From: an uncultured bacterium
GTDB lineage: Bacteria > Bacillota > Clostridia > Oscillospirales > Oscillospiraceae
Direction: 5' to 3'
NCBI GenBank assembly: GCA_949840775.1
Contig: CATKXO010000031.1
Location: 1-36,860, forward strand
Length of the DNA: 36,860 nucleotides
In this document: positions 6,284 to 10,021 of the stretch, piece after piece
Layout: each line of letters starts with the position of its first letter
How positions within the stretch are numbered: position 1 is the first letter of the stretch
Translations under genes and position numbers: made by a program
The notes under the pieces: model-generated
What the model was told of the DNA's origin: nothing
The model's database searches: none
The model's input: the letters and a program-made list of their open reading frames with translations, nothing else

Positions 6284-6955
6284 ATGGATTTTACCCCCAT
6301 CGCCCACATTTGCAGCGACTTTCCGGAGAAATTCGGCATCCCCCGGCAGAGCGGCCTGGTGGAAGAGCTGTCCGCCAGGGTGGTGTTTGAGCCGCTCTAC
6401 CGGGACCCCAGTGCCCTCCGGGGACTGGAGGGTTTTTCCCACGTCTGGCTCATCTGGGAGTTCTCCCAGGCCAGGCGGGAGGGCTGGTCGCCCACCGTAC
6501 GGCCGCCCCGGCTGGGGGGCAACAGACGGCTGGGGGTGTTCGCCACCCGGTCCCCCTTCCGGCCCAACCCCATCGGACTGTCCTGTGTGCGGCTGGTGGA
6601 GGTAAGGCAGGACCGGGAGCTGGGGCCCGTCCTCACCGTGGCCGGGGCCGACCTGCTGGACGGCACCCCCATCTATGACATCAAGCCCTACCTCCCCTAT
6701 GCCGACTGCCGTCCGGAGGCTGTGGGGGGCTTTGCCGCCCGGCCCAAGGGAGCGGACTTGGAGGTGGAATGTCCTCCGGAACTGCTGGAGGCCGTCCCGG
6801 CGGATAAGCGGGCTGGGCTGCTGGCCGTTTTGGCCCAGGACCCCCGGCCCCAGTATCAGGACGACCCGGACCGGGTGTATGGCATGGCCTTCGCCGGGGT
6901 GGAGGTGAAGTTCCGGGTGGCGGGAGACGCGCTGATTGTGACGGAGATTGTGTAG
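6284..6955 (+). CDS. trmO: tRNA (N6-threonylcarbamoyladenosine(37)-N6)-methyltransferase TrmO
   Basis: A 223-residue TrmO/TsaA-like (YaeB) protein that uses S-adenosylmethionine to methylate N6 of t6A at position 37 of tRNAs. Family signatures seen are IAHICSDFPEKFGIPRQSGL near the N-terminus, LRGLEGFSHVWLIWEFS, the core LGVFATRSPFRPNPIGLS that builds the SAM-binding beta-barrel, and DLLDGTPIYDIKPYLPYAD. The C-terminal 70 residues form the small second domain. It starts at ATG 6284 behind GCAGGAGGG. The stop codon lies inside a dispersed palindromic repeat (6951-7029). Identification is secure. Confidence 0.95.
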   Translation: MDFTPIAHICSDFPEKFGIPRQSGLVEELSARVVFEPLYRDPSALRGLEGFSHVWLIWEFSQARREGWSPTVRPPRLGGNRRLGVFATRSPFRPNPIGLSCVRLVEVRQDRELGPVLTVAGADLLDGTPIYDIKPYLPYADCRPEAVGGFAARPKGADLEVECPPELLEAVPADKRAGLLAVLAQDPRPQYQDDPDRVYGMAFAGVEVKFRVAGDALIVTEIV

Positions 6956-7029
6956 GGGCGCACATTGTGCGCCCGCAGGATAATAAACCGCATATTTGTC
7001 AGAGCGGGCGGACAATGTCCGCCCCTACA
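6951..7029. repeat. REP-like palindromic repeat, copy 1
   Basis: Begins TGTAGGGGCGCACATTGTGC and ends GGACAATGTCCGCCCCTACA: terminal inverted repeats TGTAGGGGCG / CGCCCCTACA, each followed by its own inner palindrome (GCGCACATTGTGCGC; GGCGGACAATGTCCGCC). The same plan recurs at 8972, 21790 and 26018, with a half copy at 36741. It supplies the stop codon of trmO and could terminate transcription in either direction. Confidence 0.85.
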
Positions 7030-7062: not shown

Positions 7063-7093
7063 TTGACCTTCCCCCTTGTGGAAGGTGTAGAGT
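7063..7093 (+). promoter_or_regulatory. MerR-type promoter with 19-bp spacer and operator dyad
   Basis: TTGACC and TAGAGT are separated by 19 bases, the over-long spacing on which MerR proteins act by DNA distortion. A perfect dyad ACCTTCC-N7-GGAAGGT (7066-7086) fills the spacer. The MerR gene starts 24 bases downstream, so the regulator very likely activates its own operon. Confidence 0.9.
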
Positions 7094-7116
7094 ATCATCG
7101 GAAAGGGGGAAAGCCC

Positions 7117-7767
7117 ATGAAAATCAATGAGGTGGAGGCCCAGGTGGGCATCACCAAGAAGAATATTCGCTTCTACGAGGAGCAGGGGCTGCTGTCCCCC
7201 CGGCGGGACAGCTCCAACGGCTACCGGGACTACGGCGGGAACGAGGTGGCTGTCCTGCGGCAGATCAAGCTCATGCGCAAGCTGGGCGTGCCCTTAGAGG
7301 AAATCCGGAGGATGCAGGCCGGGGGGACGGTGGCCGACGGGATGCGCCGCCACCTGGTCACCCTGGAGCGGGAGCAGAAGAGCCTGGAGCAGTCCATTCA
7401 GCTGTGCCAGAGCCTGAAGGACCGGGAGGAGCGGCTGGACGCCCTGGACGCCGCCGCCCTGCTGGAGGAGATGGAGCGGCTGGAGAAGACAGGCACCACC
7501 TTCCAGGACAAGCAGAAAAACGATTTGAAGCCGGTCCGGTACGCGGGGGCCGTTGTCATGGCCCTGCTGACCACCGCCCTGATGGCCGCCCTCATTGTAC
7601 TGATGGTGTGGGGCTTCACCGTGGACCCCGCCGACGCCCCGCCCCTGGCTCTGCTGGTGGTGCTGGTGGCCATTCCTGGGGTGATTATCCTGGGGGTACT
7701 GCTGGCCCTGTTCCAGCGGATCAAGGAAATCCGGAAAGGAGAAGAGGACGATGCAAAAAACTATTGA
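7117..7767 (+). CDS. MerR-family transcriptional regulator with C-terminal membrane segments
   Basis: A 216-residue protein. Residues 1-70 form the MerR winged helix-turn-helix (MKINEVEAQVGITKKNIRFY; EEQGLLSPRRDSSNGYRDYG; LRQIKLMRKLGVPLEEI), and residues 75-130 a dimerisation coiled coil. Instead of a metal-binding loop or a soluble ligand domain, residues 145-205 hold two hydrophobic helices (YAGAVVMALLTTALMAALIV; LALLVVLVAIPGVIILGVLL), so the regulator should be membrane-tethered. It ends RIKEIRKGEEDDAKNY, a tail shared with the next three proteins. Start ATG 7117 follows GGAAAGGGGG; in-frame codons back to 6967 are non-genic repeat DNA. It heads a five-cistron operon behind a MerR-type promoter and overlaps the next gene by 17 bases. 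The inducer is unknown. Confidence 0.93.
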   Translation: MKINEVEAQVGITKKNIRFYEEQGLLSPRRDSSNGYRDYGGNEVAVLRQIKLMRKLGVPLEEIRRMQAGGTVADGMRRHLVTLEREQKSLEQSIQLCQSLKDREERLDALDAAALLEEMERLEKTGTTFQDKQKNDLKPVRYAGAVVMALLTTALMAALIVLMVWGFTVDPADAPPLALLVVLVAIPGVIILGVLLALFQRIKEIRKGEEDDAKNY

Positions 7768-7915
7768 CGGGCCGGCCCTGGCCGGAGCCGCAATGATCAC
7801 GATTCTTACCGGAGGGCTGCTGCTTCTGCCCCTGGGGCTGGTCTTTTTCTGGACTCTGGTCCAGCGGCAGGAGGAGCTCAGGAAAGGAGAGCTGAACGAT
7901 GCGAAAAACTACTGA
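7751..7915 (+). CDS. Small membrane protein 1 of the MerR operon (54 aa)
   Basis: Begins at ATG 7751, which lies in the +1 frame inside the last codons of the MerR gene (GAC-GAT-GCA), with AAAGGAG encoded upstream within the MerR tail. The 54 residues hold one or two hydrophobic helices (LAGAAMITILTGGLLLLPLG; LVFFWTL) and end RQEELRKGELNDAKNY, nearly the same tail as the MerR protein. It is too short for a catalytic domain and is probably a subunit or regulator in the membrane. It overlaps the next gene by 17 bases, implying coupled translation. The product is hypothetical, but the overlap geometry and the shared tail make it a convincing real gene. Confidence 0.75.
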   Translation: MQKTIDGPALAGAAMITILTGGLLLLPLGLVFFWTLVQRQEELRKGELNDAKNY

Positions 7916-8171
7916 CAAAAAGGGCCACGGCCTGGTGGGCGGCGTGATTGTGACGGTGCTGGTGGTGGGCTTTGTCCTGCTGATTCTGGCCACGCTGATT
8001 CAGGCCTTCGGCCCGGTGTTCCCCTTTCTGGGGGAGCTGGGGGCGGCCTTTGGGGTGATGCTGTTCTACGCCGGGGCCATCCTGGCCGTGGGAATCGGCG
8101 TGGTTGTGGCGCTGATCCAGCGGTGGAAGGAGATCAAGGGAGGTGAGGAGGATGAGGCCAAAAAGTATTGA
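7899..8171 (+). CDS. Small membrane protein 2 of the MerR operon (90 aa)
   Basis: ATG 7899 is again nested in the preceding gene's tail codons (AAC-GAT-GCG), with AAAGGAG upstream. After a basic start (MRKTTDKKGHG) there are two long hydrophobic helices (GGVIVTVLVVGFVLLILATL; GVMLFYAGAILAVGIGVVVA) and the tail RWKEIKGGEEDEAKKY facing the cytoplasm if the positive-inside rule holds. It resembles the membrane part of the MerR protein in plan: two helices, then R-x-x-E-I-x-x-G-E-x-D-x-A-K-x-Y. It probably arose by tandem duplication of that module. Function unknown. Confidence 0.85.
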   Translation: MRKTTDKKGHGLVGGVIVTVLVVGFVLLILATLIQAFGPVFPFLGELGAAFGVMLFYAGAILAVGIGVVVALIQRWKEIKGGEEDEAKKY

Positions 8172-8409
8172 CCGCCGGGAGGAGAAGCGGGCAGCGGTGC
8201 GTTCGGTGGTGCTGAACACCCTGCTCCAGCTGATGACGGTGGGGGCGCTGCTCTATCTGCGGTCCGTCGTCCAGGCGGACTGGCTGCGGAGCCTGGCCCT
8301 GTTCCTGGCTGTGATTGATCTGGTTATCATTCCCTTCACCTTTGCCGCCCTGTGGCAGCGGGTGCGGGAGATTGAGAAGGGAGAGCTGGATGAAGCCCGG
8401 AAATACTAG
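8152..8409 (+). CDS. Small membrane protein 3 of the MerR operon (85 aa)
   Basis: ATG 8152 sits within the tail codons of the previous gene (GAG-GAT-GAG), preceded by GGAGGTGAGGAGG, which also encodes part of that tail. The overlap is 20 bases. The protein begins MRPKSIDRREEKRAAVRS, then has two hydrophobic stretches (VVLNTLLQLMTVGALLYL; LALFLAVIDLVIIPFTFAAL) and ends RVREIEKGELDEARKY. It is the third tandem copy of the two-helix plus tail design. No known domain is recognised. The GTG at 8143 in the same frame is a less likely start because it would overlap the Shine-Dalgarno. Confidence 0.85.
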   Translation: MRPKSIDRREEKRAAVRSVVLNTLLQLMTVGALLYLRSVVQADWLRSLALFLAVIDLVIIPFTFAALWQRVREIEKGELDEARKY

Positions 8410-8968
8410 AGAGAAGCGGGGGGCCGTTATTGGGATTGTGCTGTTCGGCCTGCTCCAGGCGGCCTGCGTCGTGGGTTTCTGGGCCCTGTGCCTCATCCCG
8501 GACCTGCCCCAGTGGCTGTTCATCCTGTTCTTCGCCCTGGGCGCCTTCTGCGCCGCGCTGATGGTTCCCGCCCTGTGGGCACTGAAAAAACGGTTCCAGG
8601 AGCTGGACGCTCTGGAAGATATTCAACCTGTGACATTGTATAAGGAGGAAAAAACTATGGTACTGGTAAACATCGATTATATCCCCGGAAAGGAATTTGA
8701 GGTGCTGGGCATGGCCAAGGGCACCGTGGTACAGTCCAAGAACTTCGGAAAGGACTTTATGGCCGGCATGAAGACCCTGGTGGGCGGCGAGATCACCGGC
8801 TACACCGAGATGCTCAACGAGGCCCGGCAGATTGCCGTCAAGCGCATGGTGGACGAGGCCGAGGGTATGGGGGCCGACGCCGTCATCAATATCCGCTACG
8901 GCTCCTCCGCCGTGATGCAGGGGGCCGCCGAGGTCATCGCCTACGGCACAGCGGTAAGGTTTAAATAA
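8390..8968 (+). CDS. Fusion of a two-helix membrane module with a YbjQ (DUF74) domain
   Basis: ATG 8390 lies in the tail codons of gene 3 (CTG-GAT-GAA), overlapping it by 20 bases. Residues 1-80 repeat the small-membrane-protein plan (GAVIGIVLFGLLQAACVVGF; LFILFFALGAFCAALMVPAL; KKRFQELD) but lack the conserved tail and stop. Residues 90-192 are a complete YbjQ/DUF74 domain (VNIDYIPGKEFEVLGMAKGT; ARQIAVKRMVDEAEGMGADA; VINIRYGSSAVMQGAAEVIA; YGTAVRF), a pentameric beta-barrel family often labelled heavy-metal-binding without firm proof. An internal ATG at 8657 has a perfect AAGGAGG eight bases upstream, so free YbjQ of 103 residues, the family's usual length, may also be made. It is the last gene of the operon. 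Confidence 0.88.
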   Translation: MKPGNTREKRGAVIGIVLFGLLQAACVVGFWALCLIPDLPQWLFILFFALGAFCAALMVPALWALKKRFQELDALEDIQPVTLYKEEKTMVLVNIDYIPGKEFEVLGMAKGTVVQSKNFGKDFMAGMKTLVGGEITGYTEMLNEARQIAVKRMVDEAEGMGADAVINIRYGSSAVMQGAAEVIAYGTAVRFK

Positions 8969-8971
8969 ATC

Positions 8972-9045
8972 TGTAGGGGGCGGCCTCCGGGCCGCCCCGT
9001 TTCTTTTGCCTTACGGGCGGGCCGCCGAGGGCGGCGGCCCCTACA
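8972..9045. repeat. REP-like palindromic repeat, copy 2
   Basis: Starts TGTAGGGGGCGGCCTCCGGG and ends GGGCGGCGGCCCCTACA. Both halves are GC-rich hairpins (GGGCGGCC-TCC-GGGCCGCCC; GCCGCCGAGGGCGGC). It follows directly on the YbjQ-fusion stop and may serve as the operon terminator. Confidence 0.8.
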
Positions 9046-9051
9046 TTATTG

Positions 9052-9080
9052 TTGACACCTTTTTCTTCCAGACTTATAAT
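9052..9080 (+). promoter_or_regulatory. Consensus sigma-A promoter
   Basis: TTGACA, 17 bases, TATAAT: a perfect match at both hexamers. It drives the 9122 gene. Confidence 0.93.
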
Positions 9081-9121
9081 ACAGTCAGCGTTTTCCCAAA
9101 ACAAAACAGGAGATGACCGTG

Positions 9122-10021
9122 ATGTTTGGTCTGTTTGGAAAGAAAGAGGCAAAGTCCCCGGAGGAGCGGCTGGCCGGACTCCAGCAGAAGAAGGACTGGG
9201 CGGGTCTGGCCAAAACCTACTATGAGATGGGCGTCTCCGCCATGGAGGCGGGGGACCTGAACCGGGCCCAGCTGTGGCTCCACCGGGCGGATACCATCTA
9301 CAGCGCCGACGACGCCACCTATGACAAGGTGGGGGACAAGCTCATCGACGACTGCGGCCGCCGCATCGGTGCTCTGGAGGACGAGGAAGCGCTGCTGTAC
9401 AACGCCGTCCCCGCCGAAATTGAGGCCAGGGCGGAGGAGCTGAGCGACGTTCAACTGCGCATCTGGGGGATGCTGTCCATGGCCCGGCTGGTGAAGCTGG
9501 GAAAACGGCTCTCCGCGCTGCCCGGCTGCCAGGTGCTGGGCGAGCTGGGCTGGGCGGTGGAAATGATGTTCCAATCCACCCAGGCGCCCCCCACTCAGGA
9601 GGAGTACCAGCGGCTGATGGACGTGTGCAACGCCCTCTATGAGCTCAACGGCAAGCCGGTCTACTACACCGGCGAGATTGAGGCAGCGGGCGGAGCCCCC
9701 TTCCAGGTCTTTGACCTGAACGGCATGTTCGGGGTGGAGCAGGAGCTGAACGGCTTTCTGGACAGCCACCTGCGGCTGCTGGCCGCCCTGAGCCAGGGGG
9801 CGGAGGAGCTGCCCACAGCCGAGAGCAGCGTGGTGGCCTGCGCCCTGCTGCCCGACTACTATGTCCGCACCGGGGCCGGCAAGCTGGAGGAGGTCCTCCA
9901 GATTCAGGCGGAGCTGGCGCGCATCTGGAGCGACTACGCCGCCGTTCGGGACCAGATTCCTCTGGCGGAGATCGGAAAGAGAATTGAGGAGTATGAGCAG
10001 CTGGATATTCTGGCGAAATAA
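9122..10021 (+). CDS. Hypothetical helical repeat protein (299 aa)
   Basis: Start ATG 9122 has AGGAG nine bases upstream; ATG 9113 in the same frame is too close to that site. The protein opens MFGLFGKKEAKSPEE and is soluble. Residues 15-70 look like one or two tetratricopeptide-type helical pairs (WAGLAKTYYEMGVSAMEAGD; LNRAQLWLHRADTIY). The rest is largely helical and acidic with no signal peptide, membrane segment or recognised catalytic motif. It has a perfect promoter and its own terminator, so it is transcribed alone and probably strongly. I do not recognise a named family; a role as a scaffold or partner-binding protein would be a guess. Confidence 0.85.
   Translation: MFGLFGKKEAKSPEERLAGLQQKKDWAGLAKTYYEMGVSAMEAGDLNRAQLWLHRADTIYSADDATYDKVGDKLIDDCGRRIGALEDEEALLYNAVPAEIEARAEELSDVQLRIWGMLSMARLVKLGKRLSALPGCQVLGELGWAVEMMFQSTQAPPTQEEYQRLMDVCNALYELNGKPVYYTGEIEAAGGAPFQVFDLNGMFGVEQELNGFLDSHLRLLAALSQGAEELPTAESSVVACALLPDYYVRTGAGKLEEVLQIQAELARIWSDYAAVRDQIPLAEIGKRIEEYEQLDILAK

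Follow-up and report, generated by a model that had tools for sequence, protein, structure and literature searches.

We analyzed a 36,860-nucleotide (nt) stretch of DNA (the window) from an uncultured bacterium of the Oscillospiraceae (contig CATKXO010000031.1 of assembly GCA_949840775.1), in which a MerR-family regulator with two predicted membrane helices heads an operon of small helix-pair proteins and a YbjQ protein. The helix pair of this regulator is shared with the small proteins, and in several other families a helix pair of this kind is encoded directly before YbjQ with no MerR gene nearby. On the basis of these sequence comparisons, we propose, with a probability of roughly 40%, that a CueR-like MerR protein bearing a helix pair of the YbjQ-linked type runs its own promoter, and that its C-terminal tail docks on YbjQ, for which the free small proteins compete with it. 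The well-known members of the MerR family sense in the cytoplasm.

The MerR regulator, its shared helix pair and its promoter

The regulator (216 amino acids (aa); 7117–7767, forward strand, like all features of the operon) was divided by Pfam, hydropathy and an AlphaFold2 model into a MerR_1 domain (residues 1–67), a dimer helix, two predicted membrane helices and a tail. It belongs to the MerR family by its match to MerR_1 (PF13411), with an expectation value (E) of 1.3e-19 and 70.5 bits against a cut-off of 21.6. The helix pair (7552–7701) appeared as hydrophobic segments at residues 146–164 and 177–195, and as helices 138–169 and 177–207 in the AlphaFold2 model (mean predicted local distance difference test score (pLDDT) 85.4; last eight residues below 50). 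Both methods agree with the preliminary description of this DNA, made by a model from the sequence alone, which had given the MerR protein two C-terminal membrane helices. The regulator thus combines a DNA-binding domain with at least one membrane region, by hydropathy and model, as expected of a transmembrane transcription regulator. CueR was the top match both in NCBIfam (TIGR02044, DNA-binding half) and in the PDB (E 7.1e-10), but the NCBIfam score of 53.7 bits lies far below the cut-off of 147.4. The regulator falls within the MerR family, is predicted to be a transmembrane transcription regulator and is distinct from CueR. Among 41 aligned MerR proteins, the only invariant Cys was C97, in the dimer helix (window approximately 7405–7407), and the two metal-ligand Cys in the C-terminal loop of CueR, which we take to be Cys 112 and 120, had no invariant counterpart. 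A Cys at a position resembling C97 was also seen by eye in three relatives in which MerR is fused to an RDD domain (L002, L128 and L139).

The MerR gene is followed by four overlapping cistrons. Small protein 1 (54 aa; 7751–7915), with a single hydrophobic segment and a tail, overlaps the MerR gene by 17 nt. Small protein 2 (90 aa; 7899–8171) and small protein 3 (85 aa; 8152–8409) each have a helix pair and a tail, and overlap the preceding cistron by 17 and 20 nt, respectively. The last cistron is an open frame of 192 aa (8390–8968), overlapping small protein 3 by 20 nt, in which a tail-less helix pair precedes YbjQ. The four overlaps are as previously described, whereas the claim that each of these proteins starts with a helix pair fails for small protein 1, with its one hydrophobic segment. 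Small proteins 1–3 matched no Pfam or NCBIfam family above its curated cut-off, and the same was true of the lone helix-pair proteins encoded before YbjQ elsewhere (four tested in Pfam, three in NCBIfam).

A profile of the small proteins (A2), which includes small proteins 2 and 3 of the window, found these two first in their own genome (8.5e-26 and 1.9e-23), followed by the C-terminus of MerR (1.8e-19), the helix pair of the YbjQ frame (1.3e-13) and small protein 1 (3.8e-4); the following matches, elsewhere in the genome, had E values of 0.009 and 0.09. We then removed the tails and compared the modules profile against profile, with reversed-sequence controls that all stayed below 5%. The MerR helices matched the second-last small proteins at 97.4% (E 1.1e-11), the last small proteins at 89.8% and the lone helix pairs at 89.6%. 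The second-last small proteins matched the last ones at 97.8% and the lone helix pairs at 93.6%, and the last small proteins matched the YbjQ-fused helices at 99.4%. Weaker values were obtained for second-last small proteins against YbjQ-fused helices (49.6%) and for YbjQ-fused helices against lone helix pairs (14.4%). These results indicate that the homology of the modules is independent of the tail and, together with the A2 matches, support the earlier view of the small proteins as paralogs. The cistron junctions carry 61-nt direct repeats (family D1; 7708–7768, 7856–7916 and 8112–8172), 75–77% identical, that could permit in-frame gain or loss of cistrons. Overlapping, repeat-flanked cistrons may explain how the copy number of the small genes changes without broken translation.

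The tail is common to MerR and small proteins 1–3 and absent from the YbjQ protein, and so occurs in four of the five proteins, as first reported. Its pattern, R..E[ILMV]..GE, was kept in 181 of 186 overlapping cistrons. At the same time, a Shine-Dalgarno core lay 3–11 nt upstream of the start at 179 of 180 overlapping junctions, and the tail Gly was GGA in 118 of 183 cases, versus 100 of the 1032 Gly codons of MerR residues 1–190. The tail Arg lies outside the Shine-Dalgarno region and uses all six codons, and selection therefore acts on the amino acid. Of the 28 cistrons for which no overlap with the next gene was scored, 22 also have the tail, although some of these scores stem from wrongly chosen starts, and lone helix-pair genes with gaps of +18, +27 and +37 to YbjQ still carry it. 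The use of six Arg codons and the tails without overlap ruled out the tail as an artefact of overlap alone. From the encoded Shine-Dalgarno sites and the conserved residues we infer that the tail is selected at two levels, as DNA that provides the following gene with its ribosome-binding site and start, and as amino acids. The conservation at the protein level that was originally noted stands, but the tail is not solely a protein mark, because its DNA is the ribosome-binding site of the next gene.

Upstream of the MerR gene, the sequence and a promoter scan gave a −35 box, TTGACC (7063–7068), and a −10 box, TAGAGT (7088–7093), 19 base pairs (bp) downstream of it. The spacer holds a perfect 7+7 dyad, ACCTTCC-N7-GGAAGGT (7066–7086), so the MerR-type promoter with a 19-bp spacer and a perfect dyad was correctly recognized in the first reading, and the MerR-family arrangement of a dyad operator in a 19–20-bp spacer is present. 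The operator, ACCTTCCCCCTTGTGGAAGGT, is equal to the CueR signal ACCTTCCC-(5)-TGGAAGGT, which is given in PMC1526738 as lying inside a 19-bp spacer. With up to two mismatches the dyad occurred once in the window, versus 0.20 times expected from shuffles, and 6 or 7 of the 7 dyad pairs were present in 69 of 80 regions upstream of MerR genes, versus 33 of 400 mononucleotide shuffles. A whole-genome operator search found no second convincing operator; the one strict match elsewhere lies within an apparent folD coding frame and has no TTGAC (−35) box, and we dropped the idea of a regulon beyond the operon. Because the operator is unique in the genome except for this folD-like match, the MerR regulator most likely controls its own operon.

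Linkage of YbjQ to MerR and to helix pairs

Matches to MerR at E ≤ 1e-25 were present in 51 genomes among 149 relatives (own included), 50 of them in the genus of the window, and full-length, 216-position matches in 7 genomes (own included) among 245 of the order. A genome-contig scan yielded 80 named loci, including loci from Lawsonibacter, Flintibacter, Pseudoflavonifractor, Oscillibacter, Dysosmobacter and Faecalibacterium. In all 80, the YbjQ profile detected a YbjQ gene within 3.5 kilobases (kb) downstream of MerR. The number of tailed small cistrons between the two genes was zero in 11 loci, one in 4, two in 52 and three in 13; these counts, made by tail pattern, are minima, and at least five can be made out by eye in L043. 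All 7 Faecalibacterium loci have nothing between the two genes, and there MerR overlaps YbjQ by 20 nt. The number of small genes thus varies while MerR and YbjQ stay linked, a pattern that the preliminary description had suggested looking for, and the unlinking of small genes from MerR in all relatives, which would have spoken against that description, was not seen, as the small genes are linked to MerR in 69 of the 80 loci. In L077, L082, L089 and L096, an opposite-strand gene of about 245 aa, PilZ-type in look by eye, lies inside the operon between the first and last small genes.

The YbjQ domain of the window (frame residues 90–190; domain 8657–8968) belongs to PF01906, with an E value of 2.6e-35 and 121.6 bits against a cut-off of 23. 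Within the frame, a Shine-Dalgarno sequence, AAGGAGG (8642–8648), followed by an ATG at 8657 makes a candidate second start (8642–8659). The same arrangement, AAGGAGG or GAGGAGG upstream of an ATG that is the first codon of YbjQ, was found in 17 of the 17 helix-pair/YbjQ frames recognized among 81 loci (own included). Residues E86, E87 and M90, which are encoded by the internal start DNA, are the same in all 16 aligned frames, and the other linker residues vary. Free YbjQ genes, each with its own start 27–29 nt past the previous stop, are found in related loci of this group (e.g., L039, L045, L048 and L058). The frame therefore likely gives two products, an anchored YbjQ and a free YbjQ of 103 aa; the reported fusion of a membrane module to YbjQ holds for the open 192-aa frame, but the internal start means that a free YbjQ is probably made too. 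Solved relatives of YbjQ (1y2i, 2gtc and 1vr4; PDB match E approximately 1e-10) have five chains each. A structure model of the fusion was of low confidence (mean pLDDT 67) and was left unused. The YbjQ domain of the window contains no Cys or His. YbjQ occurs in organisms as distant as E. coli and archaea (10 of 14 control genomes) and to our knowledge has no established function.

Lone tailed helix-pair genes, detected by the small-protein profile, precede YbjQ with no MerR nearby in several other families (L147, L148, L154, L155 and L156). We then examined a non-random sample of 100 YbjQ loci, consisting of the 60 best-scoring ones returned and 40 that we chose from the rest (one duplicate); the scoring profile had been built from MerR operons plus one lone-pair YbjQ. 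The scores were bimodal, with 45 loci at 40–80 bits and 55 above 100 bits. A two-helix gene lay directly upstream of YbjQ in 41 of the 55 high-scoring loci; 38 of these genes were tailed, 35 stood at exactly −20 nt, and 38 of the 41 were not MerR, judged by size. In the low-scoring group an upstream two-helix gene was found in 1 of 44 loci and a tail in none. Full MerR proteins were detected by the MerR profile at only 5 of 103 distinct loci (L149, L150, L152, L153 and L172), in flanks that spanned roughly 1.5 to 2.5 kb, or less where a contig ended. In a YbjQ tree, the ordinary YbjQ genes fell on one side (99, starred), and the MerR-linked genes stood among the helix-pair-linked ones. Some of the high-scoring YbjQ genes that lack a helix-pair gene are preceded, by eye, by an alpha/beta-hydrolase-like gene (L165, L178, L236 and L237) or by a transporter-like gene (L161).

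Because lone helix-pair genes accompany YbjQ with no MerR nearby, the module was probably YbjQ's first. We conclude with moderate confidence that the combination of helix pair and YbjQ is probably older than the MerR fusion. MerR probably gained its helix pair at the position of the metal-binding end of CueR. The opposite order, in which the regulator was the first to carry the module, had been the initial proposal; it is not supported by the tailed lone helix pairs that precede YbjQ without MerR in the fetched flanks, and we set it aside as less likely. The YbjQ tree, which bears on this order, is weakly resolved. YbjQ, rather than the small proteins, is the constant partner, because 11 of the 80 loci keep YbjQ but have no small protein and because helix-pair/YbjQ pairs occur with no MerR nearby.

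A proposed switch and its alternatives

In the switch that we propose, helix pair and YbjQ would be an older working unit at the membrane. Both ends of the helix pair are predicted to be cytoplasmic, as is the tail, which would there meet a YbjQ ring. The tail of MerR would dock on YbjQ, the free small proteins would compete for it, and overlapping translation would keep the partners in step. A change in the membrane or envelope, the putative signal, would shift YbjQ between the free small proteins and MerR, and this shift would switch the promoter with the 19-bp spacer. We predict docking and competition because YbjQ is the constant partner, the tail is shared and translation is coupled; and because the MerR helix pair resembles the YbjQ-adjacent small protein of many relatives, YbjQ is likely the route by which the switch reads the membrane. 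The products of overlapping gene pairs are reported to be, in many cases, subunits of a single complex (PMC10666635).

Several observations weigh against this proposal. The MerR helices matched the YbjQ-fused helices at only 1.75%, so that the link between them is indirect and runs through the last small proteins, and these in turn matched the lone helix-pair genes at only 3.44%. The best-scoring spacer was 17 bp in 28 of 80 promoters of relatives, versus 19 bp in 47. Of the high-scoring YbjQ genes, 13 of 55 have no two-helix gene upstream, and one more stands at a contig edge. Only 4 of 86 inner branches of the YbjQ tree are starred, the MerR-linked rows do not form one clade, and the most distant lone helix-pair genes, L197 and L205, lack the exact tail, with a long-branch warning for L205. 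The wrongly chosen starts and the non-random sampling noted above belong here as well. Finally, tail–YbjQ docking, the effect of YbjQ on MerR and a membrane-state signal are predictions.

A broader version of the proposal is doubtful. YbjQ would be a membrane-docked hub, its ring held by a tailed helix-pair protein across many Bacillota; the MerR protein of Oscillospiraceae and Faecalibacterium would have captured the helix pair, transcription would read the fullness of the hub, and the copy number of free helix-pair proteins would set the threshold. If true, this would give the YbjQ family its first function and would amount to a new build of membrane-sensing MerR switch. Independently of the hub, the regulator would extend the MerR family by a membrane-anchored branch found in common gut bacteria, Faecalibacterium among them. 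A conserved small membrane partner, together with a regulator that carries the same module, offers a direct handle on YbjQ.

Among the alternatives, it is possible, if unlikely, that sensing of the membrane, or of a lipophilic compound, is done by the helix pair of MerR itself, with the small proteins tuning MerR by helix pairing and YbjQ acting only as an effector or bystander. This reading lies near that of the preliminary description, in which the small proteins would sequester or tune the regulator of a membrane-state or envelope-stress switch. The homology between the helix pairs of MerR and the small proteins and their linkage in 69 of 80 loci are in line with direct sensing, and membrane sensing has been proposed for membrane regulators with few other domains (PMC10269533). 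Direct sensing through helix pairing fits poorly, however, with the 11 loci, 7 of them from Faecalibacterium, that have YbjQ and no small protein, and with the helix pairs that adjoin YbjQ where no MerR is nearby.

We consider it rather improbable that helix pair and YbjQ are a plain effector, for example a membrane-protective complex, near which the MerR helix pair just places the regulator, and that the tail is kept mainly because the following gene takes its ribosome-binding site and start from this DNA. The strong signs of Shine-Dalgarno sites encoded in the tail would be explained in this way, as would the loss of the tail from the YbjQ-fused helix pair, where YbjQ has its own site; but the tail Arg, in all six codons outside the Shine-Dalgarno region, and the tails of non-overlapping cistrons and of lone pairs at a distance from YbjQ point to selection on the protein.

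A switch for copper or another metal, which the CueR-like operator, the CueR matches and the family name of YbjQ ('putative heavy-metal-binding') would favor, is very improbable because the Cys ligands of CueR are absent and the YbjQ domain lacks Cys and His; in addition, the NCBIfam score is far below the CueR cut-off, C97 is the sole invariant Cys of MerR, and no metal exporters are among the downstream genes seen.

Known systems and neighboring genes

The operon resembles the CueR/HmrR systems in the DNA-binding half of MerR, in the 19-bp spacer and in the operator sequence (PMC1526738). It differs from them in that a helix pair and tail replace the metal-binding end of the regulator, which scores below the CueR cut-off, and in that small membrane proteins and YbjQ take the place of copper genes. 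Like other transmembrane transcription regulators, the MerR protein has a DNA-binding domain and predicted membrane helices in one chain (PMC10269533); in this operon, separate small proteins have the anchor as well, and it is linked to YbjQ. The survey in PMC10269533 covers 50,302 such regulators with more than 100 DNA-binding domains; MerR is not mentioned in the main text, and membrane MerR proteins as such may already have been counted.

Fusions of MerR to RDD (about 480–500 aa) also join a MerR half to a membrane domain, and proteins of this kind are the closest other MerR relatives found in the order. They carry the large RDD domain (PF06271) instead of a short tailed helix pair, and have no small proteins or YbjQ in the short flank. 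One such fusion, of 498 aa, is encoded in the same genome (G000:C19:18866–20362; L002:1501–2997; PF06271 E 6.4e-15). Compared with ordinary stand-alone YbjQ/UPF0145 genes (PF01906), the YbjQ gene of the window belongs to the high-scoring group, which mostly stands behind a helix-pair gene. In LytTR regulatory systems, a DNA-binding regulator is encoded with a separate membrane inhibitor. The likeness would lie in the combination of a regulator with small membrane partners, but LytTR regulators are of another DNA-binding family, and here the membrane part is within the regulator. The preliminary description knew of no system with this layout, and we likewise found no description of the helix-pair/YbjQ unit or of its putative capture by MerR in the open-access literature, to which the search was confined.

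The genes directly 3′ of YbjQ vary by lineage. A gene of the metallo-beta-lactamase fold follows YbjQ in 11 loci by similarity (two tested, PF13483); these loci (L068, L075, L077, L079, L083, L087, L098, L099, L101, L103 and L106) are of the Oscillibacter/Dysosmobacter type, with the gene at −7 to +1 nt from YbjQ. In 7 of 7 Faecalibacterium loci the following gene encodes a CAAX-protease-like membrane protein (one tested, PF02517), and in L119, L121 and L122 an ATP-binding cassette (ABC) ATPase and then an apparent membrane subunit follow (PF00005, tested for L122). The exporter and CAAX-protease-like neighbors would fit a role at the envelope, although they do not show one.

In the window, the interval between the TrmO gene and the MerR promoter contains a 26-nt inverted repeat (6951–7029), with arms 92% complementary and 27 nt apart, that looks like a dispersed repeat element. 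Past YbjQ, a terminator-like hairpin stem with a T-rich tail (8977–8998, forward strand) is a weak candidate, with 3 such sites versus 2.4 expected. Further downstream, a consensus sigma-70 promoter (12/12; TTGACA-17-TATAAT; 9052–9080) stands ahead of a gene for a protein of 302 aa (9113–10021), which had no Pfam match above cut-off; similar genes come after the operon in many relatives in the genus.

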